Under the pieces are notes generated by a model. The model was not told the DNA's origin. It saw nothing but the letters and a program-made list of their open reading frames with translations, and did not search any database. A stretch of DNA of 64,000 bases from NCBI RefSeq assembly GCF_002001045.1, contig NZ_MUNR01000006.1, positions 62,001 through 126,000 of the forward strand, given 5' to 3'. Source of the DNA: Rhodanobacter sp. C01 (lineage in GTDB: Bacteria; Pseudomonadota; Gammaproteobacteria; Xanthomonadales; Rhodanobacteraceae). Shown here piece by piece: positions 756-28,279 of the stretch. Numbering within the stretch: position 1 is the stretch's first letter; each line of letters begins with the position of its first letter. A program made the position numbers and the translations under genes.

Positions 756-769
756 CTGATCTGGATCAA
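756..769 (-). promoter_or_regulatory. FNR/Anr-type box for the DUF2249 operon
   Basis: CTGATCTGGATCAA matches TTGAT-N4-ATCAA with one mismatch. Its centre (762.5) is about 42 bp from the start codon at 720. If activation occurs from -41.5, the mRNA would be leaderless. Confidence 0.7.
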
Positions 770-969
770 ACGACATCCAATTGTCGTGTCGACGAGACGT
801 TCGACCTTCGGTCAGAGAGCGTTATCCAGTACTCCCTAACCACGCCATTCGGCTCAGTGCGAAACTTTGTAGTATCAATCGGGGCTGACGATTTGCGTAT
901 TTGGGCCCAGCGAGATCCAGGAGCCTTGGGCGCCTGTGACACTTTGCCATTCGTGCCGGTGCGTGCCAG

Positions 970-983
970 TTGACAAAGGTCAA
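970..983 (+). promoter_or_regulatory. FNR/Anr-type box upstream of nosL remnant
   Basis: TTGACAAAGGTCAA is a perfect inverted repeat of FNR type. Activation from -41.5 would start transcription near 1018, upstream of the nosL-like reading frame and possibly of tatABC. The rest of 770-1068 shows no convincing gene. Confidence 0.65.
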
Positions 984-1068
984 TATGATTGATTACGTCA
1001 AGGCCTAGCATGAGCGCCATGGAAGGCTTGTCTTGGCAGGTTCACGTGATTCTCGGCGACGATAAGCG

Positions 1069-1518
1069 TTGACCTTCCATTTTTCGCCACAGGGAAGTGT
1101 GAAGTTCGACGTGAAGGCCGCTATTGCAAGATGTACGAGCCTCGCGTTCGTCTTCCTTCTCGTCGGCTGTGGGGACCATCAATCCCTACCACCCCAGAGG
1201 CCCGTGGCCATTTTGAAAGATGACGTTTGCGAGATATGCGGAATGTATATCGAAGCATCATCCGGACCTCGCAGTGAGGCCTGTTTGAAGAGCAGCGATA
1301 AACCATTGAAGTTTGATTCGACGCGATATTTCCCTGCCTATGTGCTACGGCCGGGAAATGAACTGCGACTGGAGCACTTTTTTTGCAGGAGAGTGAGGGT
1401 ATTGACTGGAATCATCCGTCGAACGCCACCGAGGGGAAAAGTGATGCAGCTGCCAACGGCCTGTAGCGGGTTCCATATCACGTGGATAAAGTTACAGACC
1501 GCGCTGTCATGTTGCTAA
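1069..1518 (+). pseudogene. nosL: nosL-like lipoprotein gene, frameshifted
   Basis: NosL is a periplasmic copper chaperone lipoprotein for nitrous oxide reductase. The frame has a lipoprotein signal ending in LLVGC, then the NosL hallmarks CEICGMYI and KPLKFDSTRYF. Similarity stops at a run of seven T at 1378-1384. Downstream, another frame continues with QESEGIDWNHPSNAT, which resembles the next NosL block, and then meets TAG at 1464. One lost T plus an early stop would explain this; a sequencing error in the homopolymer is the alternative. The listed frame begins with TTG; a GTG near 1098 is another option. The gene keeps an FNR-type box and precedes tatABC. No nosZ is in the window. Confidence 0.65.
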
Positions 1519-1619
1519 AAAGTGGATTGATGGACCTCCCATCGGGGTGAACGCAGTCTCGTCGAAGTATTGAAATCAACCGCATCGCGCATTTAGCGCT
1601 GCAAGTTGTGAGGTGATCT

Positions 1620-1853
1620 ATGTTTGGTCTTGATAGTATCTGGCACTGGGTGTTGGTGCTTGTCATCGTCCTGGTGTTCTTTGGCACCGGAAAGTTACGC
1701 AATGCTGGCGGCGATCTTGGCGCGGCCATTCGTGATTTCAAAAAAGGTATGAAGGGTGGTGTTGAAACCGGCCCGTCCGAGCAGCTAAAGGCCGACCCTC
1801 CTGTAGATACCTCCGCGCAAGTCAAGAACGCCGAACGCGAACGCGTGTCGTAG
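1620..1853 (+). CDS. tatA: Twin-arginine translocase subunit TatA
   Basis: The 77-residue protein has one N-terminal membrane helix (about residues 8-21), then an FGTGKL hinge and an amphipathic helix with a charged tail, the standard TatA/TatE design. TatA multimers form the pore through which folded proteins cross the inner membrane. A GGTG ribosome site lies just before the ATG. It is the first gene of a tatABC set with only 4 bp before tatB. Its position beside nosL and the nitrogen-oxide genes suggests a set dedicated to exporting folded respiratory cofactor proteins. Confidence 0.92.
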
Positions 1854-1857
1854 CCTT

Positions 1858-2442
1858 GTGTTTGGAATCGGCTTCAATGAGCTTCTTCTGATTGCCGTGC
1901 TGGCGTTGATCGTGCTTGGTCCCGAGCGTCTGCCGGGAGTTGCACGCACCGTCGGTGCGATGGCGCGGCGTGCCCGTTCCGTCTGGGCCGACGTTCAGGC
2001 CGATGTCACGCGCGAGCTTGAAATGCAATCGATCAAGGATGACATTGCCAATGTGGCTACCGGTGTCCAGGCGACGGTGACACCACTCGTCGAAGATATT
2101 CAGTCGACGGTTGAAAATGTTCGTGCATCGAACACGGTTTTTTGGAATGAGGCCAGCGATATGTCACAAGCCTGGCAGAGCGCGGCAACGGCCAAACTCG
2201 CTGCCACCGAGAATGTTATGTCCCCGGTGGTTAAGGATGATGGCATGGCGAAGGAGTATCGCGAGGCTCCGACGGAGCTGGCGCAGGCCTTACGTGAACT
2301 TGCCTTCGCCGCGGACGGTATTCGAAATACAACGGTGGACGCCTGCGATGAACTACGTGCAGCCGTGGCTGACGTCCGTTCTGCGGCCATGCGCATCGAA
2401 TCCCTCAATAGCGCTATCACTGTCCCGGCGACGATCCGATGA
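1858..2442 (+). CDS. tatB: Sec-independent translocase subunit TatB
   Basis: The protein of 194 residues starts at GTG, 4 bp after tatA. It shows the TatB N-terminus FGIGFNELLLIAVLALIVLG with the conserved glutamate, the PERLP hinge after the membrane helix, and a long amphipathic and polar C-terminus (residues 60-194) of low conservation. TatB with TatC forms the receptor for RR signal peptides. The stop overlaps the tatC start (ATGA), which indicates coupled translation. Confidence 0.9.
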   Translation: MFGIGFNELLLIAVLALIVLGPERLPGVARTVGAMARRARSVWADVQADVTRELEMQSIKDDIANVATGVQATVTPLVEDIQSTVENVRASNTVFWNEASDMSQAWQSAATAKLAATENVMSPVVKDDGMAKEYREAPTELAQALRELAFAADGIRNTTVDACDELRAAVADVRSAAMRIESLNSAITVPATIR

Positions 2443-3200
2443 TCGCCGCATCGCCAATTGGAACCAAGGGCAGGGATGGGTTGATGGCTCACTTGCTAGA
2501 TCTGCGTGGGCGGCTGCTGAAAGCGATCCTGAGCGTGCTGTTCGTGCTGTTGGTTGTTCTGCCGTTTTCCAAGCACTTGTACGACTGGCTTGCACAACCA
2601 CTGATGGAACGTCTTCCACATGGTTCGCACATGATTGCGATCGAGGTGGCCAGTGCGTTTCTCACCCCACTTAAATTGGCATTTGTCGTCGCGCTGTTCA
2701 TGGCAATGCCAGCCGTGCTTTATCAGCTGTGGGCCTTCGTCAGTCCGGGGTTATACCGTCACGAGAAGCGTCTCGCTCTGCCGCTGTTGGCGTCCGCTGT
2801 ACTGCTCTTTTATGCGGGCTGCGCATTCGCCTATTTCCTGATTCTTCCCGCAGCATTCCACTTCTTAACCATGAGCACTCCGACAGGGGTGTCGATGATG
2901 ACAGATATTGGGAAGTACCTCGATTTTGTGCTGACCATGTTTTTCGCCTTTGGTCTTTGCTTCGAGGTTCCCGTCGCAGTTGTGCTGCTGGCAGCGTTAG
3001 GCATCGTGACACCCGCTAAGCTGCGAGCTGTACGGCGCTACGTCTTCGTCGGTACTTTTGTAGTCGCTGCGGTGCTGGCGCCACCCGACATGTTGTCGAT
3101 GATCATGCTGGCCATTCCGATGATTCTGTTGTACGAGATTGGCGTTTTCGTCTCGACAGCACTGGTACGTAATCGTGAGGAGAGGCGCCAGCTGAAGTAA
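2439..3200 (+). CDS. tatC: Sec-independent translocase subunit TatC
   Basis: This 253-residue protein has six hydrophobic segments and the TatC signature HLLDLRGRLLKA near the N-terminus, followed by FVSPGLYRHEKR in the first cytoplasmic loop, the region that binds the twin-arginine signal. An internal ATG (residue 16, MAHLLDLRGR) is an alternative start closer to the usual TatC N-terminus; the ATG overlapping tatB was kept because of the ATGA junction. Loop residues around HEKR match the conserved F-x-x-x-E region. It closes the tatABC operon. Confidence 0.92.
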   Translation: MIAASPIGTKGRDGLMAHLLDLRGRLLKAILSVLFVLLVVLPFSKHLYDWLAQPLMERLPHGSHMIAIEVASAFLTPLKLAFVVALFMAMPAVLYQLWAFVSPGLYRHEKRLALPLLASAVLLFYAGCAFAYFLILPAAFHFLTMSTPTGVSMMTDIGKYLDFVLTMFFAFGLCFEVPVAVVLLAALGIVTPAKLRAVRRYVFVGTFVVAAVLAPPDMLSMIMLAIPMILLYEIGVFVSTALVRNREERRQLK

Positions 3201-3212
3201 CCGATGGATCGT

Positions 3213-3226
3213 TTGATCTAAATCAG
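3213..3226 (+). promoter_or_regulatory. FNR/Anr-type box for the second DUF2249 gene
   Basis: TTGATCTAAATCAG differs from the consensus inverted repeat at one position. Its centre lies 67.5 bp before the ATG at 3287, so activation from -41.5 would give a leader of about 26 nt. Confidence 0.75.
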
Positions 3227-3286: not shown

Positions 3287-3553
3287 ATGTCCTTCGAAGC
3301 CTCCACGAATGCTAACGTTCATACTTTTGATGCCCGCGGTGTTGCACGCCGTTTTCGTCACTCGGCGATCTTTGGTGCTATCGGCGTTTTACGTTCCGGT
3401 GAAACAATGCGTTTCGTGAACGATCACGATCCGCTCCCGCTCATCGCCCAATTGCGCGAGCGCCTTGGCGATAATTTGACGGTCACCTATCGGCAAAGTA
3501 ATCCCGATATCACGGTGATTGATTTCGGCATTACCGGTCTGCCGATCGAGTGA
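3287..3553 (+). CDS. DUF2249 domain protein
   Basis: The 88-residue protein contains the second DUF2249 subtype, with DARGVARRFRHSAIFGAI and then GETMRFVNDHDPLPLIAQL. This subtype lacks the CPxP motif of the copy at 436 but keeps the NDHDP block. It stands alone behind tatC with its own FNR-type box. Proteins of this group are regularly found with denitrification genes; the function is unknown. A role in handling metals, haem or NO-damaged clusters is inference only. Confidence 0.8.
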   Translation: MSFEASTNANVHTFDARGVARRFRHSAIFGAIGVLRSGETMRFVNDHDPLPLIAQLRERLGDNLTVTYRQSNPDITVIDFGITGLPIE

Positions 3554-3759: not shown

Positions 3760-4083
3760 TCAGCGCTTGAGTAGGGGTAGTTTGTCCGGCACGCCGTCCC
3801 ATTCGGCGGCATCCTCCATGGCAGCAATCTTGCTGGTGAGTACCGGCCATTCGCGTGCTAGTTCAGCATTGATCGCGAGAAAGCCTCCCTGTCCGGAAGG
3901 CATGTCAAATTCAGGAAAGATCGCACCAACCGGGCATTCGTCCACACACAGGGTGCAGTCGATGCATTCGTCGGGATCAATCACCAGAAAATTGGGCCCC
4001 TCGTGGAAGCAGTCCACCGGACACACCTCAACGCAATCGGTATGTTTGCAGTTGATACAATTCTCGGTGACAACATGGGTCAC
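3760..4083 (-). CDS. fdxA: Seven-iron ferredoxin FdxA
   Basis: The 107-residue protein has the [3Fe-4S]/[4Fe-4S] ferredoxin pattern: [18 protein letters not shown] near the N-terminus and [12 protein letters not shown] at residues 40-51, followed by the typical FdxA C-terminal extension (EWPVLTSKI). It is a soluble low-potential electron carrier. It stands as a single gene facing away from the NRAMP gene. An FNR-type box at 4269 could drive it, although the distance to the start is unusually long (about 190 bp), leaving a leader of about 150 nt. Confidence 0.93.
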
Positions 4084-4268: not shown

Positions 4269-4282
4269 TTGATTGAAGTCAA
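4269..4282 (-). promoter_or_regulatory. FNR/Anr-type box, probably for fdxA
   Basis: TTGATTGAAGTCAA matches the FNR pattern with one mismatch. It is oriented by context toward fdxA, whose ATG is about 190 bp away. No convincing gene lies between them, so either the leader is long or another start point is used. Confidence 0.55.
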
Positions 4283-4324: not shown

Positions 4325-5578
4325 TCAAGTCAGCGTCCCGATGATGCCTGCGTATAGACCAAGTCCGGCGGTCATCGCCATCATGATGCCCACCACAACG
4401 GCATAAGCCCCCTTGAGGCGATATGGTTCCGGTAGTGCCCGTCGGGCCAACGTATAAAGGAAGCCGAGGACGATAGGCAGCAGCAGCGCATTCATGACCT
4501 GTACCCCAACGCTGAGTTTTACCAGGTCAACGCCAGAGGTCACTAGAAGGCCTCCCAGGACCAAGGTCACCGTGTACACGCCATAGAACCACCGAGCCTC
4601 TTGCGGGCGCTGGGCGAGCGAGTGTTTGTAGCCCATGATTTCGCCGAGGGTGCGCGCTGCCGTAAGGGTGACGACGATGGTCGCGACGAGCGCCGCGCCG
4701 ATCATGCCTAGCGCAAATAACAGTGTTCCTGTCCGTTCGCCGAGAAGGGGCGTGATCGCCTGCACAATCTTCTGAACTGTATCCAGAGAGTGTCCGGGGT
4801 CAACGCGCCCGATGGTTGCAGCGACTGCCACTAGCACGGCAGCCATGATGAGCTGAGTGACAACTGATCCGATCGCTGTATCCCAGCGCGCCGCGGGGAG
4901 GTCGGCAGCAACCAGTCCCTTCTCGGCCACTGCTGACTGCTGGTAGAACACCATCCAGGGCATGATCACCGCGCCGATATTTGCGGCGATCAGGTAGAGG
5001 TATCGGCTATTGGTGAGCGGCATCTTCAACGCTTCCGTGAGGGCTGCGGTGATATCAGGTTTTGCCTGCCACGCGACATACAAAAACACACATTCAAACA
5101 GGCCGACCGCTAGCGCAATGCGTTCCACCGACAGGTACGAGCCGCTATAGGCCATCGACGTGAGTCCGATGATCACAATGGTCATGCTGAGCCAGTTCGG
5201 AATGCCTATGAGCGCTCCTACACCAGCGATGCCACTCAATTCAGTGATCAATGCACCGAGACAGGCAAGCAACAGTGTTGAAACTGAAATCCATGCCCAG
5301 ATGGGCCCGAAGTGTTGCCTGATCGCGTGGCCATGGCCCTGACCGGTGAAGATACCCAGGCGGATCGTGAGTTCCTGTACTACAAACAGGATGGGGATCA
5401 TGACTGCCTGCAACAGCAGCAACCGATATCCAGATTCCGCACCGCTTTGCGCGGCGGTGATGATGCTCCCCGCGTCGGTATCCGCCAGCATCACGACAAT
5501 GCCGGGACCTGCCACAACGGCAAAGCGGGTCCAGCGCGATTTCGGACGAATCAGGGCTTCGACGGCTGTAGCTGACAT
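4325..5578 (-). CDS. NRAMP-family divalent metal transporter (atypical)
   Basis: The protein of about 417 residues has around eleven membrane helices and an NRAMP-type first helix GPGIVVMLADTDAGS. Canonical NRAMP proteins have DPGN in this metal site; here the motif is DTDAGS. The sixth helix reads ANIGAVIMPWMVFYQQSA instead of the usual MPHN form. It therefore belongs to an NRAMP-related branch whose substrate (Mn, Fe or Mg) cannot be read from the sequence. The chosen start is an ATG preceded by GAAGAAG; a GTG at 5629 would add 17 residues. A Fur-type box lies 105 bp upstream, which favours iron or manganese supply. Confidence 0.82.
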   Translation of the reverse strand: MSATAVEALIRPKSRWTRFAVVAGPGIVVMLADTDAGSIITAAQSGAESGYRLLLLQAVMIPILFVVQELTIRLGIFTGQGHGHAIRQHFGPIWAWISVSTLLLACLGALITELSGIAGVGALIGIPNWLSMTIVIIGLTSMAYSGSYLSVERIALAVGLFECVFLYVAWQAKPDITAALTEALKMPLTNSRYLYLIAANIGAVIMPWMVFYQQSAVAEKGLVAADLPAARWDTAIGSVVTQLIMAAVLVAVAATIGRVDPGHSLDTVQKIVQAITPLLGERTGTLLFALGMIGAALVATIVVTLTAARTLGEIMGYKHSLAQRPQEARWFYGVYTVTLVLGGLLVTSGVDLVKLSVGVQVMNALLLPIVLGFLYTLARRALPEPYRLKGAYAVVVGIMMAMTAGLGLYAGIIGTLT

Positions 5579-5682
5579 ATACGGGACTTCTTCGAGAGGG
5601 AAGTTCTGCGCAGAGACGTCGGTGATCACGATGGTTTCGTACCATTGAGTCGTGATATCGATTCGGACTAGCGCACTTCAAT

Positions 5683-6075: not shown

Positions 6076-7062
6076 TCATAAGCCGAGATTGTTGTGCTCC
6101 AACACGCGTTCGGCGCGATAGCTCGAGCGCACCAAGGGCCCCGCAACCGCCTCCAAAAAGCCCTTGCTCAGCGCCAACTCGCGATACTGGAGGAACTGCT
6201 CTGGTGTGACGAAACGCTGCACCGGCAAGTGATGTGGACTTGGCCGCATGTATTGGCCCAGCGTGACTACATCGACATGAGCGTCTCGAACATCGTCCAG
6301 CGTGCGTTCGATCTCGGCGTCTGTTTCACCCAATCCAAGCATCAAACTGGTCTTGGTCAGAGTATTCGGCGCATGACGCTTGGCAAATGCCAGTACACCC
6401 AGCGTCTGGTTATAGCCGGCGCGTTGGTCACGCACTGGATGGGTCAACCGCTCCACCGTCTCTAGGTTTTGCGCGTAGGTGATGAGGCCTGCGTCCAGTA
6501 CAGTAGCGACTGCACCAAGGTTGCCGGCAAAATCTGGCGTCAGCGCTTCGACGGCCGTCTGAGATGAGTGCTCATGAATCGCCCGTATGCACGCGGCGTA
6601 ATGCGCAGCTCCACCATCGGCAAGATCATCGCGGTCTACCGAAGTCAGCACGACGTACTCGAGTTTCATCAGCGCAACAGCTTCGGCCACATGTATCGGC
6701 TCCAGTGGATCGAGCCAGCCGTGGGGATTGCCGGTACTGACCGCGCAGAACTTGCAAGCGCGCGTGCACACAGATCCCATCAGCATCAGAGTGGCAGTGC
6801 CGCGGCCCCAGCATTCAGCTATGTTCGGACATTTCGACTCCGCACATACGGTGTTCAACTTGTTTGTGTGTACGATCTGGCGCACGTCTTCGTAGCGTGC
6901 CCCAGCCGGCAGTTTGACGCGTAGCCATGGCGGTTTGCGATCGGCATCCGGCATCGCGCTGGCGGCGTTCGGTTTGATACCGCCCTTGACCGCGGGCGTG
7001 CCTTGCGGACTTAGAAACTTGCTGCCATCGGGAATATGTGTGCCCGGTTCAGTGCTCGACAT
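6076..7062 (-). CDS. lipA: Lipoyl synthase LipA
   Basis: This radical-SAM enzyme inserts two sulfurs into octanoyl groups on lipoyl domains. The 328-residue protein shows both cluster motifs: the auxiliary cluster [12 protein letters not shown] (residues about 74-85) and the SAM cluster CTRACKFC (about 100-107). The C-terminus has the expected YRAERVL. No lipB or lipoylated enzyme gene is adjacent; the gene stands alone behind an FNR-type box between the NRAMP and norB genes. That context suggests a second copy for low-oxygen or nitrosative conditions, but whether the genome has another lipA cannot be seen here. Confidence 0.93.
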
Positions 7063-7123: not shown

Positions 7124-7137
7124 CTGATGCATATCAA
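7124..7137 (-). promoter_or_regulatory. FNR/Anr-type box for lipA
   Basis: CTGATGCATATCAA matches the FNR inverted repeat with one mismatch. Its centre is 68.5 bp from the lipA ATG, in line with the other boxes in this block. Confidence 0.7.
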
Positions 7138-7292: not shown

Positions 7293-9623
7293 TCAATGAT
7301 TCTTGATGGCTTTGCCCGCGCTTGATGGCAAGACAGCTAGCTTTCCCGCAGTACGCTGCGCCCACAATTTGGCCATGAAGTCCCAAGCCATCAGCACGGC
7401 GCCCATGGCGAATACGACGTCACCAGGCATGCGCATCCATTGCCAGAAGGTAGTCGTGTTGTAGAACTGCATGCTGCGTGCGTAAGCGTAGCCGTGGGTG
7501 TAGACAGCTTCCAGCTGTGGCCAGCCGATCGGGTAGAAGTTCAGCACGATCCACATCACCACGCCGATGTTGTAGAGCCAGAACGCCCACACGCCGATTC
7601 GATCGCTCCACGGCCGGTCACCGTTGAGATAGCGCAGCACCATGTAGATCAGGCCGATCGCCAACAGGCCGAAGGCGCCGAACATGGATGTGTGTGCATG
7701 ATTGAGGGTAAGGAAAGTGCCGTGCTCGTAGTAGTTGACCAGTGGTGCATTCAGCGTGCCTCCTCCAAACACGCCGGCACCAACGAAGTTCCAGAACGAA
7801 GAGCCGAGGATGTAGAGATAGGCGAGCTTGTACGGAAAGTCCTTTTTCTGCTTGATGTGAAGTTGCTGCTCGATGGCCTCCAGTACCAACAAGACCAGTG
7901 GCAGCACCTCGATGAAGGAGAACATGCTGCCGACACCGACCCAGAGTCCAGGCTCGCCAGCCCAATACAGGTGATGACCGGTACCGAGTACACCGCCGAT
8001 CACGATGAGGACCCACTCGAACAGTACGGCACGCTCGACCATCTGACGCGACACCAAGCCCAGCGCCATCAGGAAATAGCCGGTAACCGCGGCGGTGAAT
8101 AGTTCAAACGCGAGCTCCACCCAGAGGTGAACCACCCACCAACGCCAGAAGTCGGTGATCGAAAACGAGGGATTGGGTGAGCCCAGCGGAATCATGCCGA
8201 ACACATAGAACACTGCAACAGTAAGCGTGCTTATCCACAGCAGGTGTTCGATACGGAATAGGCCGTACAGCGAGCCACCGCTCTGCCTAGACAGCGATTT
8301 GAGGGTAGGCCAGAACGCGCGCAGCAATACGATGCACCAGACGGCCAAGCCGACGAAGAACAGGATTTGCCAGAAGCGGCCCAACTCCAGATATGAGAGA
8401 CCCTGGTTGCCGAACCAGAACCAGTTCTTGTCTAGCAGCCCCATGATGCCCAGATAGTCCCCGATCAGGGCGCCAGCCACGATCGTTAACAAGACCCAGA
8501 AGATCAGGTTGACGAGCAGTCGCTGCCCCTTGGGCTCGCGTTTGCCGATCAGCGGCGCCAGGAACAGCCCGGCGCCAATCCAGCTCACACCGATCCAGAT
8601 GATCGGTGCTTGCAGATGCACGCTGCGCAGGAATGCGAACGGCAGCCATTTGCCAACATTGAACCCGTAAAAGCTGGCGCGATCAGTGTAGTAGTGCGCC
8701 ATGATCGAGCCGGCAAGGATTTGCACCAGAAGAACGCCTGCTACGACCAGGAAGTACTTCCATAGCGCCTTCTGGCTAGGCGTGGGTGCCATGAAAGTGT
8801 GCAGGACCGGTTCAAAGGTTTCGTTTGGGGCTTTTGGCTGGATCCACAGACGGAAGATCACCAGCGCCGCGCCGATGGCGAAGAACACCATCGTGAAGGA
8901 TGCCCACGTCCAAACGAAGGTCGCTGACGTGGGGGCATTGCCGACCAGCGGTTCTGCCGGCCAGTTGGTAGTCCATGAATAATCCTTGCCGGGACGACGT
9001 GCGACCGTGGTTAACGACGAATAGAGTAGGAACTTTGCGGTCTGATCGGCGCTGGATGGGTTCAGCGCGCGCGCACCCGTGTAGCCTTTGGCGAAATCAT
9101 CAGTGAGCAGCGCCGTGGCGATGCGTGGATGCAGCGTGCCAATCGCCGCGGCCACAGCATCCGGAAGGACGACTTGCTGCTGGCTCAGGTCGATGCCTTG
9201 CAACTGCCTGCGCATGGCGTGGGTGATGCCCTCCTGCTCGTCGGCGTCGACGGCATCGAAAGGCTTGCCATAACGCGTCAGGGCGAGGTTGTTCCGGACT
9301 TCTTTCGCTAACTGCACCAGATACTCGGCGGTGTAGTCTTCGCCAAAGGCGGAGCCCATGCCATACAGGCTGCCGTAATCCATCAGGTCGGCTTTCTGGA
9401 AGCCCGATTTGCCGCCAACGATGTCGGCATAGTCCATGACCGACGTACCATCGCTGGTAACCATTTGCTGAGGTAGTGGAGCGGCCTGCTGATACGTGCT
9501 GCGGGTCGCTGCGGCCATGCCCAGCAAGCAGGCAACGGTAACGAACAGCAGCACCCAGATCAGTACCTTGCTGGTACGGTCCTGTGGACCCGCTTGGCCA
9601 TATGGGAGATTAGTTGTACTCAT
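7293..9623 (-). CDS. norB: Quinol-dependent nitric oxide reductase, single subunit (qNor)
   Basis: The enzyme reduces 2 NO to N2O in the inner membrane with quinol as electron donor. The 776-residue length and the N-terminal hydrophilic domain (about residues 35-240, after one helix) identify the quinol type, in which the NorC part is fused without a haem-binding CxxCH. The NorB core follows with about twelve helices and histidine ligand regions RSVHLQAPIIW, WWVVHLWVELAFE, GTGHHLYW and LTLNHAHTSMFG; the glutamates of the FeB region are present. It is a single-gene unit with an FNR-type box upstream and a strong terminator downstream. Accessory norD/norQ genes are absent, as is usual for qNor. 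Confidence 0.96.
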   Translation of the reverse strand: MSTTNLPYGQAGPQDRTSKVLIWVLLFVTVACLLGMAAATRSTYQQAAPLPQQMVTSDGTSVMDYADIVGGKSGFQKADLMDYGSLYGMGSAFGEDYTAEYLVQLAKEVRNNLALTRYGKPFDAVDADEQEGITHAMRRQLQGIDLSQQQVVLPDAVAAAIGTLHPRIATALLTDDFAKGYTGARALNPSSADQTAKFLLYSSLTTVARRPGKDYSWTTNWPAEPLVGNAPTSATFVWTWASFTMVFFAIGAALVIFRLWIQPKAPNETFEPVLHTFMAPTPSQKALWKYFLVVAGVLLVQILAGSIMAHYYTDRASFYGFNVGKWLPFAFLRSVHLQAPIIWIGVSWIGAGLFLAPLIGKREPKGQRLLVNLIFWVLLTIVAGALIGDYLGIMGLLDKNWFWFGNQGLSYLELGRFWQILFFVGLAVWCIVLLRAFWPTLKSLSRQSGGSLYGLFRIEHLLWISTLTVAVFYVFGMIPLGSPNPSFSITDFWRWWVVHLWVELAFELFTAAVTGYFLMALGLVSRQMVERAVLFEWVLIVIGGVLGTGHHLYWAGEPGLWVGVGSMFSFIEVLPLVLLVLEAIEQQLHIKQKKDFPYKLAYLYILGSSFWNFVGAGVFGGGTLNAPLVNYYEHGTFLTLNHAHTSMFGAFGLLAIGLIYMVLRYLNGDRPWSDRIGVWAFWLYNIGVVMWIVLNFYPIGWPQLEAVYTHGYAYARSMQFYNTTTFWQWMRMPGDVVFAMGAVLMAWDFMAKLWAQRTAGKLAVLPSSAGKAIKNH

Positions 9624-9686: not shown

Positions 9687-9700
9687 CTGATCTGGATCAG
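9687..9700 (-). promoter_or_regulatory. FNR/Anr-type box for norB
   Basis: CTGATCTGGATCAG is a fully symmetric 14-mer of FNR type. Its centre lies 70.5 bp from the norB ATG, predicting a leader near 29 nt. Confidence 0.78.
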
Positions 9701-18874: not shown

Positions 18875-18888
18875 TTGATTCAGGTCAA
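18875..18888 (-). promoter_or_regulatory. FNR/Anr-type box for hemN-fnr
   Basis: TTGATTCAGGTCAA has one mismatch to the inverted repeat. It is centred 41.5 bp from the hemN ATG, which would give a leaderless mRNA and FNR autoregulation. Nothing else was recognised in 18889-19174. Confidence 0.7.
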
Positions 18889-19174: not shown

Positions 19175-19188
19175 ATGACACAGATCAA
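19175..19188 (+). promoter_or_regulatory. Weak FNR/Anr-type box for nnrS
   Basis: ATGACACAGATCAA keeps the TGA-N6-TCA core with a degenerate left arm. Its centre is 67.5 bp from the nnrS ATG, the distance seen at the better boxes. Confidence 0.5.
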
Positions 19189-19248: not shown

Positions 19249-20496
19249 ATGGCTGAATCTCCATCTTCAAGAGTCAAGCCCGCTATGTTCGCGGAGTTGC
19301 CAGCCCTGCTGGCGTCGGCGCCGCATCGGCTGCTGTTTCTGGCCGGCACGGTTGCAGTGCTGCTCAGTATGCTTTGGTGGGCGCTGGAACTAACCTGGAT
19401 GCGCTTCGGGCTGGGTGGCTGGCCGCAGCCATCGATAGCCCCCGGCTGGGCGCATGCAATGCTGATCCAATACGGTTTGTTTCCGCTATTCATCTTTGGC
19501 TTTTTACTGACAGTTTTTCCGCGCTGGCTGAATCGACCGGCGTTGCCGCGCGGGCGGTATGTACCGGTCGCTGGCTGCGTATTCGGCGGTTATGTGCTGG
19601 CGAACGTGGGGCTGCTCGACTTGCCGTGGCTGCTCAAGCTCGGCTTCATCGTGATGCTGGCGGGTTACGTGATCGGCTTCTGGACACTGGCGACGGTGTT
19701 GCATGCGTCGGGTGAGCGCGACAACCATGCGCGTTCGTGTCTTCTGGCGGTGGGTTTGGGCACGCTAGGGCTTCTCGCGTTCCTGGTCTCTCTGTTCGGC
19801 GGTCCGTTCGAGTGCGCTACGCTGGCGATCCGGCTGGGGACATTTGGTCTGCTCCTGCCCATTTTCTTTACGGTAACGCACCGAATGCTACCGTTCTTTA
19901 GCGGCAATGTGGCAGCCGACTACAGGGTGATCCGTCCGCGCTGGAGCCTTCCGGTTGTGTGGGTGTTGCTGCTAGTACATGCGCTGTTGGATTGGCGCAA
20001 TGCGTTGGGCTGGCTGTGGCTAACTGATGTTCCGCTGGCGCTGGTGTTCGCTTGGCACGCGCTGGCGTGGCAACCTTGGAAGGCGATGCGGCCAGGTCTG
20101 CTTGCTGTGTTGCATCTGGCATTCGCTTGGCTGCCGTTGGCATTCGTGCTGTATGCGCTGCAGGACGTGATTTACGCGGCCAGCGGTCATCTGCTGCTCG
20201 GACGTGCACCTCTGCATGCATTGGCGATTGGTTACTTCGGCTCGATGCTGGTCGCAATGGTGACGCGGGTGACCCAAGGCCATTCCGGTCGGCCGCTGCA
20301 GATGGGCGCGGTAGCGTGGCTGTGCTTCGGACTGCTGCAGATCGTCGTGTTGCTGCGCATCCGCGCGGAATTGGGCGGCGATATGTACCTATGGCTGGTG
20401 GTCGCTGCGTACGGCTGGCTACTGGCTTTTCTGCCATGGGTGCTGCGTTCGGCATGGATCTACCTGACCCCGCGGGTGGACAACAAGCCGGGTTAA
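19249..20496 (+). CDS. nnrS: NnrS family haem-copper membrane protein
   Basis: The 415-residue protein has about twelve helices and fits NnrS: an N-terminal MFAELPALLASAPHRLLFL segment, conserved histidines in TVTHRMLPFFS and a later HALAIGYFGSMLVAMVTRV block. NnrS proteins bind haem and copper and protect against nitrosative stress by limiting iron-nitrosyl formation. The gene stands divergent from hemN and is followed by a small CopD-like gene with its own FNR-type box. Confidence 0.92.
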   Translation: MAESPSSRVKPAMFAELPALLASAPHRLLFLAGTVAVLLSMLWWALELTWMRFGLGGWPQPSIAPGWAHAMLIQYGLFPLFIFGFLLTVFPRWLNRPALPRGRYVPVAGCVFGGYVLANVGLLDLPWLLKLGFIVMLAGYVIGFWTLATVLHASGERDNHARSCLLAVGLGTLGLLAFLVSLFGGPFECATLAIRLGTFGLLLPIFFTVTHRMLPFFSGNVAADYRVIRPRWSLPVVWVLLLVHALLDWRNALGWLWLTDVPLALVFAWHALAWQPWKAMRPGLLAVLHLAFAWLPLAFVLYALQDVIYAASGHLLLGRAPLHALAIGYFGSMLVAMVTRVTQGHSGRPLQMGAVAWLCFGLLQIVVLLRIRAELGGDMYLWLVVAAYGWLLAFLPWVLRSAWIYLTPRVDNKPG

Positions 20497-20541: not shown

Positions 20542-20555
20542 TTGATCCATATCAG
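20542..20555 (+). promoter_or_regulatory. FNR/Anr-type box for the CopD-like gene
   Basis: TTGATCCATATCAG has one mismatch. It lies in the 113-bp gap after nnrS, centred 61.5 bp from the next ATG. Confidence 0.72.
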
Positions 20556-22331: not shown

Positions 22332-22547
22332 TCAGCCTTGATCTGGGTCAGTGCCAGCGGCAAAGTCCTCTGCCTGCGTGGCCCTTTCCGGAGGCGCTTC
22401 GCCCGGAGCCAAATCTTCAAGCAGTGGTAGAACTCCCGGGCTGTCCAGATCGTCAAACTGCTGGTGATTGACGGCCCAGAAGAAAATGACTGTCGCGATC
22501 AGCACCACCAGCAAGGTTACCGGGATCAGTACAAGCAGGATGTTCAT
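22332..22547 (-). CDS. ccoS: cbb3 oxidase maturation protein CcoS
   Basis: A 71-residue protein with one N-terminal membrane helix (MNILLVLIPVTLLVVLIATV) followed by the CcoS-type motif AVNHQQFDDLDSPG. CcoS is needed to load cofactors into cbb3 oxidase. The start overlaps the ccoI stop as ATGA; the longer frame upstream is a shadow of ccoI. Its last codons contain the azurin FNR-type box. Confidence 0.9.
   Translation of the reverse strand: MNILLVLIPVTLLVVLIATVIFFWAVNHQQFDDLDSPGVLPLLEDLAPGEAPPERATQAEDFAAGTDPDQG
22338..22351 (-). promoter_or_regulatory. FNR/Anr-type box for azurin, inside ccoS
   Basis: TTGATCTGGGTCAG has two mismatches to the perfect repeat. It lies in the last codons of ccoS, 80.5 bp from the azurin ATG, and spells the ccoS C-terminus GTDPDQG in that gene's frame. 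Confidence 0.68.
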
Positions 22548-24790
22548 ACGCGCATCTCGCGTTGCTTCGCCGTGGGTTCGCTGACACTGTCGCGACCCAC
22601 GCGCAATGCGTTGAGCACGACTGCCAATGAGCTCAGCGACATCCCGATGGCGGCGAGCCACGGCGGCACGAAGCCGAGCGCGGCGAACGGCACGGCACAC
22701 AAGTTGTAGACGAGTGACCAGCGCCGGCTCTGAGCAACCACGAGAGCTACCTGGCGCGCGATCGAGCGTGCTTGCACGAGGCCGTCCAGACCTCCATCCA
22801 GCAAGAGCAGGTCGGCATGCGCCTGTGCCAACTCGGTTCCACTACCCAGCGCGGCGGAGACGTCCGCGCCCGCCAGTACCGGCGCGTCGTTGCTTCCGTC
22901 ACCGACGGCCAAGGTGACGTGATCACGCTGGCGGGCTGCCTGCAGCCGCTGCAGCTTGTCGGTGGGCGACTGACGGCCGTAAGCGTCGTGGATGTCCAGA
23001 CGAGCGGCAAGCGCGGCCACGCGCGATTTACTGTCGCCACTGGCGATTACCAGCGCGATGCCGTCGGCACGCAGCGCGTCGAGCGTGCGGCGGGCATCTT
23101 TGCGTGGCTGTTCGTCGAGATGGAAGGCAGCGATCGGTCCGTTCTGATCGGCCAGCAGCAGCGCATTTGAGAGGCTTGCCGATACCATATGTCCGCTCGG
23201 CGCCAGCGCGAAATCGGCGCGCCCCAAACGCAGTGGGCGACCATCGACTTCCCCGCTGATGCCTGCGCCGGCACTGACCTCAACTGCCTGCGCCCGCTGT
23301 GGCAGGCCACGCTGGCGGGCGGTGCTGGCCAGCGCACGCGCCAGCGGATGCGAGCTTTCATGGGCCAGTGCGGCGGCCAGCTGCAGCACGTCATCGGGAT
23401 CATCGCCGCGGAGCGGTTCGATCGCGGCGGTTGCCAGTTGCGGCACGCTGAGCGTGCCGGTCTTGTCGAACAACGCGTAATCGACCCGCGCCAGCGTGGC
23501 CAGCGCGCTGCTGTCGGTGACGAGCACTCCGTGTCCAGCCAACACGCCGAGAGCGCGGGTCAGCGTGGCCGGTCGAGTCAGTGCGAACGAGCATGGACAG
23601 GCGACCACCAGCACCGCCACCGCCGCTTCGAACGCGCGCGCTGGGTCCACCAGCATCCAGCCCAGCGCCGTCAACGCGGTCAGCAGCAGTACGCGGCCGA
23701 TAAAACGGCCGACTTCGCGTTCGCCCCCGGGCGCGGACACCATGCGCGCCTTGCGCGTACGCGTGCTGAGCGCGCTCAATCGGGCGGCAGCTGTCGCCTC
23801 GCCGGTGTGTTCCACGAGCAGCTCGGCAGGGCCGACCAGCAGCATGCTGCCGGCAATCAGCCGCTCCCCGCGCTGACGCTGCACGTGGAGCGATTCGCCC
23901 GACAGCAAAGCCTCGTCCACCTCGGCCATGGCGCTCTCCAGCACGCCGTCTGCCGGTACCGTGGTGCCCTCGGCGATGTGCACGTGATCGCCAGCAACCA
24001 GCTCGATCGCGGCCACCGTTTCCAGGCTGCCGTCTGCATGCCGACGCTCCGCCAGCAGCGGTGCGGCATCGATCACCGCATCGCCAAGAGCACCACTGCG
24101 ATGCCGCGCGCGCAACTCCACGTAGCGTGCGGCCAGCAGCAGAAACACAAACATGCTGACCGAATCGAAGTAGATGTCGCCGCTGCCGCGCAAGGTGTTG
24201 ATCGTGCTTGCGAGAAATACCAGCAGCACCGCGAGCGTCACCGACAGGTTGATGCCCAACTGGTGGCGGCGCAGTTCGCGCAGTGCGCCGACATAGAACG
24301 GCTTGGCCGAATAGAACACCACGGGCACGGCGGACAACAGACTCAGCCAGCGGAACAGGCCGCGGGTAGTGAAATCGACGAAGTCGACGACGCCGATGTA
24401 GATCACGAACGCATAGGTCATCACCTGCATCGCGAACATGCCGGCGACCAGCAGGCGCTTCAATGCGTCATGCGATTCGCGCGAACGGGCGTCGTCGATG
24501 CTGTCATGCCGCAGCGGTTGCGCCCTGCAACGTGCGCCAGTGAACGCCTCGAGCAGAACCGGCAGTGATGTGTGCTGCCTGTCCCACACTACCCGTACGC
24601 GCTTGGCCGGTGCGTCGATGGCCACCCGCTGCACGCCGGGCAACCCGTGGATGAGTTGCTCCAGTCGCAATACCTGCTGCGCGTTGTGCAGTCCTTCGAC
24701 CCGCAGAGCGATCTCGCTATGACCATCTCGGCGTGTACGCAATACCTGCGCAGCCAGTTGCGGCTGGACCCATGCCGCATGGGTACTCAT
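22544..24790 (-). CDS. ccoI: Copper-transporting P-type ATPase CcoI (FixI)
   Basis: This 748-residue P1B ATPase exports copper needed for cbb3 oxidase assembly. Seen: intramembrane metal motif VVACPCSFALTRP, phosphorylation motif DKTGT, SSHPLARAL (HP locus), hinge VGDGSNDAP, and an actuator loop LLSGES (family usually TGES). The N-terminal metal-binding-like domain (about residues 1-75) is present, but its usual CxxC is replaced by VEGLHNAQQV, and the extra N-terminal cysteines of many FixI proteins are also absent. It overlaps both neighbours by ATGA (a small membrane-protein gene and ccoS). Confidence 0.92.
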   Translation of the reverse strand: MSTHAAWVQPQLAAQVLRTRRDGHSEIALRVEGLHNAQQVLRLEQLIHGLPGVQRVAIDAPAKRVRVVWDRQHTSLPVLLEAFTGARCRAQPLRHDSIDDARSRESHDALKRLLVAGMFAMQVMTYAFVIYIGVVDFVDFTTRGLFRWLSLLSAVPVVFYSAKPFYVGALRELRRHQLGINLSVTLAVLLVFLASTINTLRGSGDIYFDSVSMFVFLLLAARYVELRARHRSGALGDAVIDAAPLLAERRHADGSLETVAAIELVAGDHVHIAEGTTVPADGVLESAMAEVDEALLSGESLHVQRQRGERLIAGSMLLVGPAELLVEHTGEATAAARLSALSTRTRKARMVSAPGGEREVGRFIGRVLLLTALTALGWMLVDPARAFEAAVAVLVVACPCSFALTRPATLTRALGVLAGHGVLVTDSSALATLARVDYALFDKTGTLSVPQLATAAIEPLRGDDPDDVLQLAAALAHESSHPLARALASTARQRGLPQRAQAVEVSAGAGISGEVDGRPLRLGRADFALAPSGHMVSASLSNALLLADQNGPIAAFHLDEQPRKDARRTLDALRADGIALVIASGDSKSRVAALAARLDIHDAYGRQSPTDKLQRLQAARQRDHVTLAVGDGSNDAPVLAGADVSAALGSGTELAQAHADLLLLDGGLDGLVQARSIARQVALVVAQSRRWSLVYNLCAVPFAALGFVPPWLAAIGMSLSSLAVVLNALRVGRDSVSEPTAKQREMRV

Positions 24791-25005
24791 GGTGGAGGGC
24801 CGTTGCTGCTATGGCTGCTGCTTGGCACCCCGAACACGGTGTGCGACGTGTCCACCGGGATATCGGCGTGACGGGAGCTCACCACGATCAGCCATACGCA
24901 CCCGGCCATCGATGCGGCGAAGACCACCACACCAAGCCACAGCACCGGCTGGCGATACCAGCTCGATGCGCTGGATAAATCGCGGGCGTCATGGCGTGGC
25001 ATCAT
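24787..25005 (-). CDS. Small single-helix membrane protein between ccoP and ccoI
   Basis: A protein of 71-72 residues with one helix (VLWLGVVVFAASMAGCVWLI) and a short periplasmic tail. It starts at tandem ATGs inside the end of ccoP and ends in an ATGA overlap with ccoI, so it is translated with the cluster. The position is that of fixH/ccoH, and the SSWYRQP lead-in to the helix resembles FixH, but the protein is about half the length and lacks the FixH domain. The call as a real gene rests on the tight overlaps. Confidence 0.6.
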   Translation of the reverse strand: MMPRHDARDLSSASSWYRQPVLWLGVVVFAASMAGCVWLIVVSSRHADIPVDTSHTVFGVPSSSHSSNGPPP

Positions 25006-25894
25006 CGCGGTGCGACAGGTGGTAGACATAGGCGGCCAGCACGTGGATCTGGTCGTCACTGAGGCGGCGGCTCCACGCCGGCATATGGCCCTGCCTGCCG
25101 CCACCGATGGTGGCTTCGATATCGGCAACGCTGCCACCGTGCAGCCAGATGTGGTCCGTGAGATTGGGTGCGCCAAGCGCCTGGTTGCCCTTGCCATCCG
25201 GGCCGTGACAGGCGGCGCAGGTGACAAACAGCGGCTTGCCGGCCGCCGCCTTGGCAGCATCGTACGGTGAGCCGGACAGACTAAGCACATATTGGGCGAG
25301 ATTTTTCACGTTGTCCTCGCCCAGACTCGCCCACGGCGGCATGACACCGGCACGACCATCGTGGATGCTTGCGGTGATCGACTTACCGTCGCCGCCGTAC
25401 AACCAGTCGGCGTCAGTGAGATCGGGCGCACCAAGTTTTTGATTGCCCTTGGCGGTGCGCCCATGGCAGGCCGCGCAGTCGTCGCCGAACAATTCCTTGC
25501 CCATCTGCTGGGCGGCTGGATCGCCAGCGAGTTGCTCGACCGGGTACAGCTCGAAGCGCTTCATCTCCTCGGCGAACGCGACATTGTTGCTGGCCACGTT
25601 GCGCGCCAGTTCGCCATGCGAGGTCCAGCCCAGTAAACCCTTGAAGTTGCCGAAGCCAGGGAACAACGCCAGATACGTGAAGCCGGCGATGAACATGCTG
25701 GCCGACATCAGCAACCACCAACGCGGCAGTCGTCGCACACCCTCGCGCAGCGCACCGTGTGCCCAGATGTGGCCACTGGTGCCGTCGGGCAACGTCGGTA
25801 TTTTTACCCACGGTCCCCACAGGAACAGGAACAATGTAATGCCCAGGTTGAACACCACCAGGAACATGACCCACAACGACCAGCCTGTGCTCAT
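24989..25894 (-). CDS. ccoP: cbb3 oxidase dihaem cytochrome subunit CcoP
   Basis: The 301-residue subunit passes electrons to CcoN. Two N-terminal helices (about residues 6-28 and 57-76) anchor it, and two cytochrome c domains carry CAACHGRTAKG and CAACHGPDGKG, with likely methionine ligands in GVMPPWA and GHMPAWS. It overlaps ccoQ by 4 bp upstream and the small membrane gene downstream. Confidence 0.95.
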   Translation of the reverse strand: MSTGWSLWVMFLVVFNLGITLFLFLWGPWVKIPTLPDGTSGHIWAHGALREGVRRLPRWWLLMSASMFIAGFTYLALFPGFGNFKGLLGWTSHGELARNVASNNVAFAEEMKRFELYPVEQLAGDPAAQQMGKELFGDDCAACHGRTAKGNQKLGAPDLTDADWLYGGDGKSITASIHDGRAGVMPPWASLGEDNVKNLAQYVLSLSGSPYDAAKAAAGKPLFVTCAACHGPDGKGNQALGAPNLTDHIWLHGGSVADIEATIGGGRQGHMPAWSRRLSDDQIHVLAAYVYHLSHRDDATP

Positions 25895-26085
25895 GGACGA
25901 CTCTCCCGTGTGCCTGCCTGCGTGTCGGCAGGTTGTTCTTCCGTATCTTCCTGCATCGGCAACTGGGCCATCTGGTCAAACACTTTCTTGTGGCGCTTGC
26001 GCCAAGCCCAGATCCAGATACCAATGAAGGTGATCATCATGGCCAGGATGAAAGCGCCCGCGATCTGTCCCCATACCGGACTCAT
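25891..26085 (-). CDS. ccoQ: cbb3 oxidase small subunit CcoQ
   Basis: This 64-residue protein has a single helix ([20 protein letters not shown]) followed by the basic [16 protein letters not shown] and an acidic tail, the CcoQ/FixQ design. It stabilises the oxidase complex. ATGA-type overlaps join it to ccoO and ccoP. Confidence 0.9.
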
Positions 26086-26735
26086 GGTTGGCCTCCATCG
26101 CTGGCTTCCGCCGAGGTTGTCTTCGTCGGCTCATTTTTAATACCCAAGCCCTGCAGATAGGTAATCAGCGCGTCCATCTCGGTCTTGCCGTTCACCGCCG
26201 CTGGCGCGCCGGCGATGTCCGCGTCGCTGTACAGATCGCCCAATCGGCGCAGCGTGCGCATGCTGGCCTGGATCTCCGCCGCATCGAGTTTCTTGTCGGC
26301 CAGCCAGGGGAAACCTGGCATGTTTGATGGCGGCACCACCTGCCGGGGGTTCATTAGGTGCATGCGCTGCCAGTCATCCGAGTATTTGCCTCCGACACGA
26401 GCTAGATCCGGTCCGATACGTTTGGAACCCCACAGGAACGGACGGTCGTAGACCGATTCGTCGGCGGTGGAGTAGTGACCGTAGCGCTCCGTCTCGAAAC
26501 GCAGCGCGCGGATCATCTGCGAATGGCACAGATAACAGCCCTCTCGTACGTAGATGTCCCTGCCAGCCAGGCGCAGCGGGTCGTACGGTTTGACCCCGGA
26601 CGGCGCCTTGATCGCATGTGCCTCGATGAACAGCGGTGTGATTTCAGCGAGGCCGCCGAGCGAGACCATGATAGCGATCAGGATGCCAAGCAGGCCGACG
26701 TTTTTCTCGATGATTTCAAAATGCTTGTATGCCAT
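26082..26735 (-). CDS. ccoO: cbb3 oxidase monohaem subunit CcoO
   Basis: The 217-residue subunit has an N-terminal membrane helix and one cytochrome c site, CYLCHSQM, preceded by GRDIYVREG. The typical [16 protein letters not shown] segment and SNMPGFPWL ligand region follow. Ten bases separate it from ccoN. Confidence 0.95.
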
Positions 26736-26745
26736 GTCGTGATCC

Positions 26746-28212
26746 TCAACCGGCAGCCGGCAAGGGGGCCGGTACCTGATTGGGCACCGGCTCCGGGATC
26801 GGCACGGGAATCGGTTTGATCAGTCGGGCACGGGCGTCTGCTGCGGTGTGCCACAGATTCCAGGCCATCACCACCATGCCAGACAGGATCAGCAGGCCAC
26901 CGGCCCAGCGGATCAAATACATCGGCTTGATCGCAATCAGACTGTCGAGGAAGGAATAAGTGAGCGACCCATCCGGGTTGGTGGCGCGCCACATCATGCC
27001 TTCGGTGATGCCGGCGGCCCACATCGAGCAGATGTACATCAGCGTACCCATCATGTGCAGCCAGAAATGCGCTTCCATCGCGCGATGCGAGTGCATGGCG
27101 GGTCGACCTAGCGCACGAGGCGCCATCGCGTAAAGCGAGCCGATGGTGATCATCGCGACCCAGCCGAGCGCACCCGAATGTACGTGGGCGATTGTCCAGT
27201 CGGTGTAGTGCGACAACGAATTCACCGTCTTGATCGCCATCATCGAACCTTCGAAGGTGGCCGCGGCGTAGAACACCAGCGACATCACCATGAACTTGGC
27301 GGCCGGGTCGGTCTTCAGTCGCCACCACGAGCCGTTGAAGGTGAGTAGCCCGTTAGCTGCGGAGCCCCAGCTGGGCATCAACAGGATCAGCGAAAATGCC
27401 ATACCCACCGACTGCACCCAGTCGGGCAGGGCGGTGTACATAAGGTGGTGCGCGCCTGCCCACATGTAGACCGAGATCAGCGCCCAGAAATTGACGATCG
27501 AGAAGCGATAGCTCCACAGCGGCTGCTGGGCCTGCCGCGGGACGAAGTAATACATCATGCCGAGGAAGCCGGCCGTGAGAAAAAACGCTACCGCGTTGTG
27601 GCCGTACCACCACTCCACCATGGCATCGACCACGCCCGAATAGATCGGGTACGACTTCCACATCGACACCGGCAGCACGAGACCGTTGACGATATGCAAC
27701 AGGCCGACCGCGATGATGAAGGCGCCGTAGTACCAATTCGCGACATAGATATGGCGGATGCGCCGGCGCGTCAGGCTGGCGAAGAACACCACGCCGAAGC
27801 TGACCCATACCACGGCGATGAGAATGGCGACGATCCACTCGGGCTCGGCATATTCCTTGCCGCGGGTCGCGCCCAGCGGCATCGACACCATGGCCAGCAC
27901 GCAAATCAGTTGCCAACCCCAGAATGTGAACTCGGCAAGCCGGCCCAGCGCCAGCCGCGCCTGACCGGTACGTTGCACCACGTAATAGCAGGTGCCCATC
28001 AACGCACAGCCGCCAAAGCCGAAGATCACCCCGAAGGTGTGGTCAGGACGGATGCGACTGAAGGTCAGCCACGGGATATCAAAATTCAGCGCGGGCCACA
28101 TCAGCTCCGCGGCGGCGTAGACGCCTACCGACATGCCGATGATTCCCCATACCGCGGCGCCGAGCAGAAACTGGCGCACGACCTTGTCGTTGTAGTACTC
28201 GGTATTTGGCAT
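26746..28212 (-). CDS. ccoN: cbb3 oxidase catalytic subunit CcoN
   Basis: The 488-residue subunit has about twelve helices and the haem-copper core for high-affinity O2 reduction: [18 protein letters not shown] (copper-site histidine and tyrosine region), [10 protein letters not shown] and [18 protein letters not shown]. It is the first gene of ccoNOQP-small gene-ccoI-ccoS and has a perfect FNR-type palindrome upstream. A proline-rich tail ([11 protein letters not shown]) closes the protein and is not typical of the family core. Confidence 0.96.
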
Positions 28213-28265
28213 GGCACCCCCTAACTATGGTTGGAGGTATTCTGACAACGCTGTTCAGCCGACTA

Positions 28266-28279
28266 TTGATCTAGATCAA
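28266..28279 (-). promoter_or_regulatory. Consensus FNR/Anr box for the cco operon
   Basis: TTGATCTAGATCAA is a perfect palindrome matching the consensus. Centre to ccoN ATG is 60.5 bp, predicting a leader near 19 nt. Confidence 0.88.

Follow-up and report, generated by a model that had tools for sequence, protein, structure and literature searches.

FNR-type boxes in the window

We analysed a stretch of 64,000 nucleotides from Rhodanobacter sp. C01, hereafter the window, which corresponds to C12:62001-126000 (contig C12) in a genome of 3,981,371 bp on 14 contigs, together with the FNR-type boxes that lie in it and in the adjoining part of a genomic island of at least 92.7 kb. Fourteen boxes had been listed in a preliminary description, and all of them match where they had been placed. 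The distance of 60–81 bp to a start codon then given for ten of them (3213, 7124, 9687, 11616, 13246, 16282, 19175, 20542, 22338 and 28266) was recovered as well, measured from box centres to possible start codons. We distinguish a strict box, TTGAY-N4-RTCAA, from a relaxed one. Possible starts were re-listed for most boxes, because the simple gene caller had placed the starts of FabA, UbiT, NnrS and probably UbiV too far downstream; it also missed a NosL-like open reading frame (ORF, 1069-1518). On the plus strand, the pattern of the earlier list has 16 matches in positions 1-28279 and 4 in 28280-64000, so that two had been omitted from the earlier list (26668 and 26927, within ccoO/ccoN), and counting both strands adds 1402, within the NosL-like ORF, and 27230, within ccoN. 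The 14 boxes, given without strand, are placed as follows:

756-769, FNR-type box CTGATCTGGATCAA, about 310 bp from the nearest start, no called start near
970-983, strict FNR-type box, about 92 bp before the NosL-like ORF (TTG start, 1069)
3213-3226, FNR-type box, 67.5 bp before a DUF2249 gene (3287-3553)
4269-4282, strict FNR-type box, 192 bp before a ferredoxin-like gene (3760-4083, minus strand)
7124-7137, FNR-type box, 68.5 bp before lipA (second copy)
9687-9700, FNR-type box, 70.5 bp before the nitric oxide (NO) reductase gene
11616-11629, FNR-type box, 64.5 bp before a porin-like gene
13246-13259, strict FNR-type box, 66.5 bp before ubiM
16282-16295, FNR-type box, 63.5 bp before nirK
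18875-18888, strict FNR-type box, 41.5 bp before hemN of the hemN-fnr pair
19175-19188, FNR-type box, 67.5 bp before nnrS
20542-20555, FNR-type box, about 61 bp before a small ORF
22338-22351, FNR-type box, 65–80 bp before a cupredoxin gene
28266-28279, perfect palindromic FNR-type box, 60.5 bp before ccoN

The single boxes at 756 and 4269 could be idle sites. The short box-to-start distance of hemN is found in its relatives too, with 41–44 bp in the 12 orthologs (of 26 boxed) for which a distance was printed; activation by FNR from -41.5, if it takes place, would leave the hemN-fnr transcript without a leader.

Box density in the window, the island and the genome

Within the window strict boxes occur five times, all before position 28280, against 0.18 expected from shuffles. 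Over the whole genome, 20 of the 34 strict boxes fall into C12:3312-90279, where 0.8 would be expected for the 92.7-kb stretch (2.3% of the genome), and 41 of the 238 relaxed boxes fall into the island, compared to 5.5 expected. First-order random sequences gave a mean of 0.27 and a maximum of 1 for the strict form (60 sequences) and 3.8 for the relaxed form. The excess is confined to one spacing, with 20 strict matches on the island at N4 and 0 or 1 at all other spacings from 0 to 10, while 60 permutations of the half-site yielded a mean of 0.9 and exceeded three only in the overlapping forms YTGAT (15) and TYGAT (10). No strict box was found in 11 control stretches of 20 kb elsewhere in the genome. 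The 132.8 kb of C12 off the island carry two strict boxes (0.15 expected) and ten relaxed ones (3.0 expected); since the relaxed form is about threefold over shuffles even there, shuffles understate the background and the genome itself is the better yardstick. A density no higher than in random parts of the genome, which had been named beforehand as the outcome speaking against a regulon, was thus not observed, given the share of strict boxes found on the island.

The limits of the 27-kb block originally assigned to the boxes, on the other hand, were wrong. Boxes span C12:3312 to C12:90279 and begin about 59 kb left of the window, so that the box-bearing block measures at least 92.7 kb, more than three times the length visible to the preliminary description, and the window covers its right third. 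All 12 boxes outside called genes in C12:1-33000 are strict, and six lie within 100 bp of a called start. Whole-genome counts of TTGATN4ATCAA over 45 genomes of the genus (1–13 matches each; 2, 9, 9, 3 and 11 in five FNR-less genomes) did not separate genomes by FNR presence and were left unused because they are dominated by background.

Conservation of boxes in relatives

The boxes of the left part of the island could be compared with diverged counterparts in two relatives, B04 (contig C27) and G003 (contig C13), in which 9 and 6 of the 12 boxes, respectively, were alignable and 3 and 6 were not. Of the letters in the box halves, 88 of 90 and 58 of 60 are unchanged, whereas the flanks, with 60 letters for each box, retain 394 of 540 and 247 of 360, corresponding to 97–98% conservation in the alignable boxes against 69–73% around them.

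For the orthologs of island genes, 200 bp upstream were scored in 42 loci (L047-L088) that belong to other species and genera and hold FNR relatives. Matches below 45% identity, matches starting after query residue 25, places cut by locus ends, second matches at one place and the near-identical copies L044-L046 were dropped. A box was found in 82 of 198 promoters, where about 4.6 would be expected from in-gene control stretches; the counts are not independent, as many loci come from related species, and some loci had no scorable ortholog. Boxes were found before HemN (26/26), FabA (7/7), NO reductase (6/6), UbiT (9/10), NirK (6/7), NnrS (19/24), UbiU (2/2) and CcoN (2/3), with further ones before MBL (1/1), the cupredoxin (1/1), the ferredoxin (1/2), CcoI (1/5) and g73 (1/6). 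Within the same 200 bp no box was present upstream of the orthologs of FNR (30), EgtB-like (10), FabB (7), g76 (6), CcoP (5), NadA (5), NnrS56 (5), Glb74 (5), DUF55 (4), CcoO (4), Sco (3), NadB-like (3), UbiV (2), HlyIII (2), a universal stress protein (2) and five genes with a single ortholog, including the porin. This conservation in relatives supports a function of the boxes. The genes singled out earlier as unexpected members do carry boxes, but conservation adds little to their case, as the porin scored 0/1, UbiM and LipA had no scored ortholog and DUF2249 lay outside the query set.

One could argue that these palindromes arose by chance or from codon use and regulate nothing, given that the relaxed form occurs 238 times in the genome and that six of the nine off-island strict matches inspected lie in ORFs of at least 267 amino acids (aa). 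We regard this as extremely unlikely in view of the N4-specific excess, the placement outside genes and the conserved footprint; for the island set as a whole it is refuted by the ortholog promoters together with the spacing and the footprint.

FNR-type regulators

The regulator gene of the block is:

16652-17446, minus strand, fnr, encoding an FNR whose four [4Fe-4S] ligand cysteines align to solved FNR

Alignment to solved FNR (9qlt) covers residues 37-257 with an E-value of 1.6e-44 and brings the C-x2-C-x5-C cysteines and the distal cysteine into register, which bears out the previously noted FNR with a full cysteine set. FNR proteins carry the recognition-helix motif E-x-x-S-R, and the residues are ETVSR in the island FNR and ETISR in solved FNR. 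The best NCBIfam match is PRK11161, the E. coli-type Fnr subfamily, with 184.5 bits; since this is below the 228-bit cut-off, the island FNR is not filed in that subfamily. The gene shares its strand with hemN and overlaps it by 4 bp.

Crp-type helix-turn-helix matches over the genome comprise three above the cut-off and two below. Besides FNR, those above it include a C8 protein, which by eye is Clp/CRP-like, and a second FNR-like protein of 226 aa (C12:8782-9462), which is 40% identical to FNR, has the same ETVSR residues and lacks the N-terminal cysteine motif. The two FNR-type regulators found in the genome are thus both island genes. This opens up the alternative that two regulators split the island, with FNR governing the respiratory and biosynthetic right part and the 226-aa protein, perhaps sensing NO or acting downstream of FNR, governing a left part of universal stress proteins, phosphoketolase and acetate kinase. 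FixK and DNR offer a comparison for a protein acting downstream of FNR in this way. The quality of the boxes differs between both parts, as strict forms make up 12 of 12 boxes outside genes on the left, against 7 of 21 further right (p 0.00016 in Fisher's test; the 21 are 20 called outside genes plus C12:84338), but the split at 33 kb was picked after the data had been seen, and box quality alone assigns no regulator. In B04 and G003, the left module together with its own 226-aa-type regulator lies on a different contig from fnr, and strict boxes are dense there (60 kb of B04 C27 hold 14, and 60 kb of G003 C13 hold 10). The shared recognition residues count in favour of the alternative, but they also predict that each protein would bind the other's sites; the 226-aa protein has no known sensor chemistry. 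We consider the matter evenly balanced, and the strict left and mostly relaxed right boxes hint at two sub-regulons at the level of sequence. Of the original claim of one regulon, the FNR-type boxes, their density and their promoter-like placement stand, while its singleness is unproven, because the second FNR-like regulator could own part of the boxes.

Island ends and transfer between species

The right end of the island lies within the window and is marked by two features:

29267-30523, minus strand, island integrase (tyrosine recombinase with Arm-DNA-bind_3)
30669-30682, plus strand, attachment sequence CTCTCTCTCCGCCA at the right island end

The FNR is 100% identical in this genome, B04, C03 and C05, each a separate species in the collection, and this identical form is found in only these 4 of the 45 genomes of the genus, a patchy presence. 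C12:1-91454 matches C05 with 99.83% identity over 91,469 bp, C12:1-92722 matches C03 with 99.90%, and C12:45747-92692 matches B04 with 99.9% in two pieces. Among the four species the island is 99.83–99.97% identical over 47–92 kb, compared to 83.3–89.8% in two chromosomal 20-kb loci of the same genomes. In B04 the left half is absent at the island site and a diverged copy of the left module (81–88% identical) is located elsewhere.

The B04 island sits between a tRNA-Ser(GCT) gene and, at C11:5544, a 14-bp copy of the tRNA 3' end, CTCTCTCTCCGCCA, with the integrase adjoining, and the sequences of C03, B04 and this genome diverge at this core (30669-30682 of the window). C05 has this cargo bounded by tRNA-Ser(TGA) and the 14-bp repeat belonging to it, and a different integrase (36% identical) accompanies it. 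In this genome the right end only was seen, as the contig ends before the left one. That flanks and integration places differ argues against simple cross-contamination. The island has a G+C content of 58.8% against 63.8% in C12:109151-225500, which is weak evidence for an island since the 11 control stretches range from 56.3 to 64.5%. By sequence comparison, the 92.7-kb stretch is a mobile genomic island of Rhodanobacter that recently moved between species.

Parts of the fnr-hemN-nnrS-nirK and ubiT-nadA-fabA-fabB-ubiV-ubiU sets recur in varied order in 20-kb loci of five other genera, Fulvimonas, Frateuria, Dyella, Oleiagrimonas and Lysobacter, mostly at about 47–87% identity. They lend some support to the view that anaerobic and denitrification genes often stand together in Lysobacterales and that box density merely mirrors the gene content of a normal chromosomal cluster. 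That the stretch is nearly identical across species, occupies different tRNA-Ser places and has exact attachment ends shows it to be a mobile element instead. We therefore find ordinary local clustering improbable; as a full account it is contradicted by cross-species identity and attachment ends, while the clustering itself is real and probably older than the island, which appears to be its recent mobile version.

Two further differences between the genomes were noted. A second insertion-like stretch with 55.6% G+C (30683-47150 of the window, C12:92683-109150) is located between the right island end and the chromosome, was not found beside the island in B04 and encodes a YadA-like trimeric autotransporter of 1586 aa (34866-39626) as well as a MASE1 protein (44015-45664). 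The island copy of B04 (G007) carries a 1.2-kb insertion (C11:34471-35703) at about position 1756 of the window, compared to this genome and C05.

Gene content of the island

Besides the genes already named, the island part of the window comprises:

1858-3200, plus strand, TatA/B-like and TatC genes (Pfam)
4325-5629, minus strand, Nramp-family metal transporter gene (NCBIfam matches below curated cut-offs)
6076-7062, minus strand, lipA, an extra copy, with another over the cut-off on C13, off the island
7293-9623, minus strand, nitric oxide reductase with fused NorB cytochrome-c-like and COX1 parts, presumably of the quinol type
11951-13186, minus strand, ubiM (UbiH/F-type hydroxylase), NCBIfam equivalog over cut-off
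14762-16225, minus strand, nirK, copper nitrite reductase with a C-terminal cytochrome c-like part
17443-18840, minus strand, hemN, oxygen-independent coproporphyrinogen oxidase
19249-20496, plus strand, nnrS
22544-24790, minus strand, ccoI-like copper ATPase, named from context
24989-28212, minus strand, ccoP, ccoQ-like, ccoO and ccoN (cbb3 oxidase)

Porin-like, SCO-like, cupredoxin and DUF1275 genes complete the set, and Pfam assigned no family to the porin, a 444-aa protein of the left part, g73 and a 418-aa NnrS-like protein. Left of the window (C12:1-62000), the island encodes an Nramp protein, several universal stress proteins, a CBS protein, a histidine kinase, a response regulator and a short-chain dehydrogenase, together with acetate kinase, a MaoC/phosphate acetyltransferase fusion, phosphoketolase, a BON protein and an alcohol dehydrogenase. 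NADH-dehydrogenase-like, ApbE, NosR-like, NosZ, NosD, NosF-like and NosY-like genes are present as well. Further genes encode a tyrosine-decarboxylase-like protein, a pyridoxal-phosphate (PLP) enzyme, a UbiD-family protein, NadA and, over the cut-off, UbiU, FabB, FabA and UbiT; UbiV, whose start was probably called too late, and a NadB-like protein fall just under it.

The island thus holds Nir, Nor and Nos genes for denitrification. A search for narG, which did not extend to nap, gave no match in the four island genomes and one over the cut-off among the 15 genomes searched, so that the test proposed earlier, transcript start mapping under low oxygen with nitrate, needs changing.

Three further loci left of the window carry strict boxes. 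The MaoC/phosphate acetyltransferase fusion (L036:9413-10840, C12:19413-20840) adjoins acetate kinase, lies near phosphoketolase and has its box 66.5 bp upstream, and the region is possibly an FNR-controlled acetate branch. Behind another box, AMP-phosphorylase-like, PRPP-synthetase-like and beta-CASP genes stand in a row (L017:7458-11343, C12:27458-31343) and make an unusual trio for nucleotide/RNA turnover within an anaerobic regulon. The tyrosine-decarboxylase-like protein, itself a PLP protein (L018:7584-9572, C12:47584-49572), has its box about 240 bp before the called start, and in Oleiagrimonas (L075) a homolog occurs in linkage with ubiD/ubiU.

Sole copies and distribution over the genus

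NadA, the UbiU/UbiV pair and FabA over the cut-off were found in this genome only on the island. 3-Hydroxyanthranilate dioxygenase (3-HAO), which uses oxygen and makes quinolinate, a precursor of nicotinamide adenine dinucleotide (NAD), is encoded off the island on C7 and is present in 44 of the 45 genomes of the genus. Among these genomes, a close FNR (E-value at most 1e-50) is present in 39, FabA over the cut-off in 36, NadA in 31 and UbiUV in 24. FNR co-occurs with FabA (p 0.0006), NadA (p 0.008) and UbiUV (p 0.08), p-values that are only indicative as the genomes are related and some are incomplete. Five genomes without a close FNR (G016, G026, G028, G030 and G064; G030 is 89% complete) also lack NadA, UbiUV and FabA over the cut-off. 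The exception is G020 (82% complete), which has all three without a close FNR; three genomes show FNR without NadA, UbiUV and FabA.

Proposed working and meaning

Taken together, the boxes are very likely FNR-type binding sites before many operons of a mobile island that carries its own predicted oxygen sensor and regulon, as far as can be judged from the DNA. Several observations weigh against this. Off the island, nine of the 14 strict boxes were inspected in their loci (six in ORFs of at least 267 aa, two in ORFs of 123 and 99 aa and one in none), and of two further ones on C12 one lies inside and one outside a called gene; those outside long ORFs (L001, L002, L009 and C12:151838) could be real targets, so with three of the 14, two on C13 and one on C14, uninspected the regulon need not be island-only. 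A box is missing from the 200 bp upstream of 116 of the 198 ortholog starts; several of these genes probably stand downstream in operons (fnr after hemN, fabB after fabA, nadA after ubiT), but this does not account for all of them, and support for the porin (0/1), NnrS56 (0/5), DUF55 (0/4), g73 (1/6) and CcoI (1/5) is weak. UbiM belongs to an oxygen-using hydroxylase family and nevertheless has a strict box; it is an awkward member of the regulon, which may serve low-oxygen growth together with the cbb3 oxidase. The island LipA duplicates a chromosomal gene, and the accessions of B04, C03 and C05 are of one series.

We propose a model in which, at low oxygen, the [4Fe-4S] cluster of the island FNR would remain in place and the protein would dimerise, occupy the boxes and switch on the island genes. 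Boxes located 60–70 bp before the starts would fit activation from near -41.5 with a leader of 20–30 nucleotides. As hemN-fnr is boxed in 26 of 26 scored relatives, positive feedback is likely, which would render the switch self-amplifying. A mainly aerobic Rhodanobacter would gain respiration of nitrite, NO and nitrous oxide (N2O) and a high-affinity oxidase, along with oxygen-free steps for haem (HemN), ubiquinone (UbiT/UbiU/UbiV and UbiD), unsaturated fatty acids (FabA/FabB) and NAD (NadA/NadB). Oxygen-using counterparts were searched for in the case of NAD only (3-HAO), and we infer the replacement of the haem, quinone and fatty-acid steps. Likewise, binding, activation, oxygen response and growth phenotype are what we infer from the sequence. 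Only tentatively do we go one step further and regard the island as a self-contained, transferable anaerobic set, in which a single tRNA-Ser insertion could provide an FNR-less aerobe with an oxygen sensor, oxygen-free routes to haem, ubiquinone, unsaturated fatty acids and NAD, and nitrite, NO and N2O respiration under one box, and in which NAD synthesis could switch from the kynurenine route to FNR-controlled NadA/NadB.

Facultative anaerobiosis in aerobes is usually seen as many separate gains under an existing regulator, while here regulator, respiratory genes and biosynthetic routes share one element. In recent times this element has passed between at least four species, and the gain of anaerobic life by a single transfer can thereby be tested directly. 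The island may additionally explain the patchy denitrification of Rhodanobacter, which is of relevance for N2O, and it would constitute a natural FNR regulon concentrated on one element.

Comparison with known systems

The closest likeness to the box set is found in Sphingopyxis granuli TFA, whose FNR regulon, in the available text, has boxes centred near -41.5 relative to the transcript starts of hemN2, ccoN, uspA and ubiT and which also has two FNR-like genes (PMC7713065). Unlike the island, that regulon is not described there as one mobile island, and fabA and nadA are absent from the text. Across Pseudomonadota, 1362 of 1566 triplets are reported to have candidate FNR sites ahead of ubiU and/or ubiT (PMC11707229), and FNR activation of ubiTUV has been shown in E. 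coli (PMC10470549), according to the portions of these papers at hand. The ubiTUV pathway is described as vertical in the former (PMC11707229), whereas here it appears to move between species on an island with its regulator.

In Rhodanobacter from a contaminated aquifer, i.e. in the same genus, nir, nor and nos genes are present as in the island (PMC8809349). In contrast to the island, these strains have nar, only nar and nos are clustered and the others lie at separate loci, and the accessible text contains neither the word fnr nor ubiquinone (PMC8809349). A literature search, with most subscription papers and all preprints outside its scope, returned no report of a Rhodanobacter island joining FNR, denitrification and biosynthetic routes, and no paper on Rhodanobacter with UbiU.

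With respect to mobility, the nitrate respiration conjugative element of Thermus thermophilus (30-kb NCE) and its 7-kb nic cluster are comparable, as transferable respiration genes moved into an aerobe together with their own oxygen-responsive and DNR-type regulators (PMC5748679). They differ from the island in being without FNR, and no quinone, NAD, fatty-acid or haem biosynthesis genes are listed for them in the available part of the paper (PMC5748679). FNR regulons and mobile respiration islands are thus both known, while the combination of a regulator with biosynthetic bypasses on one mobile element looks new.

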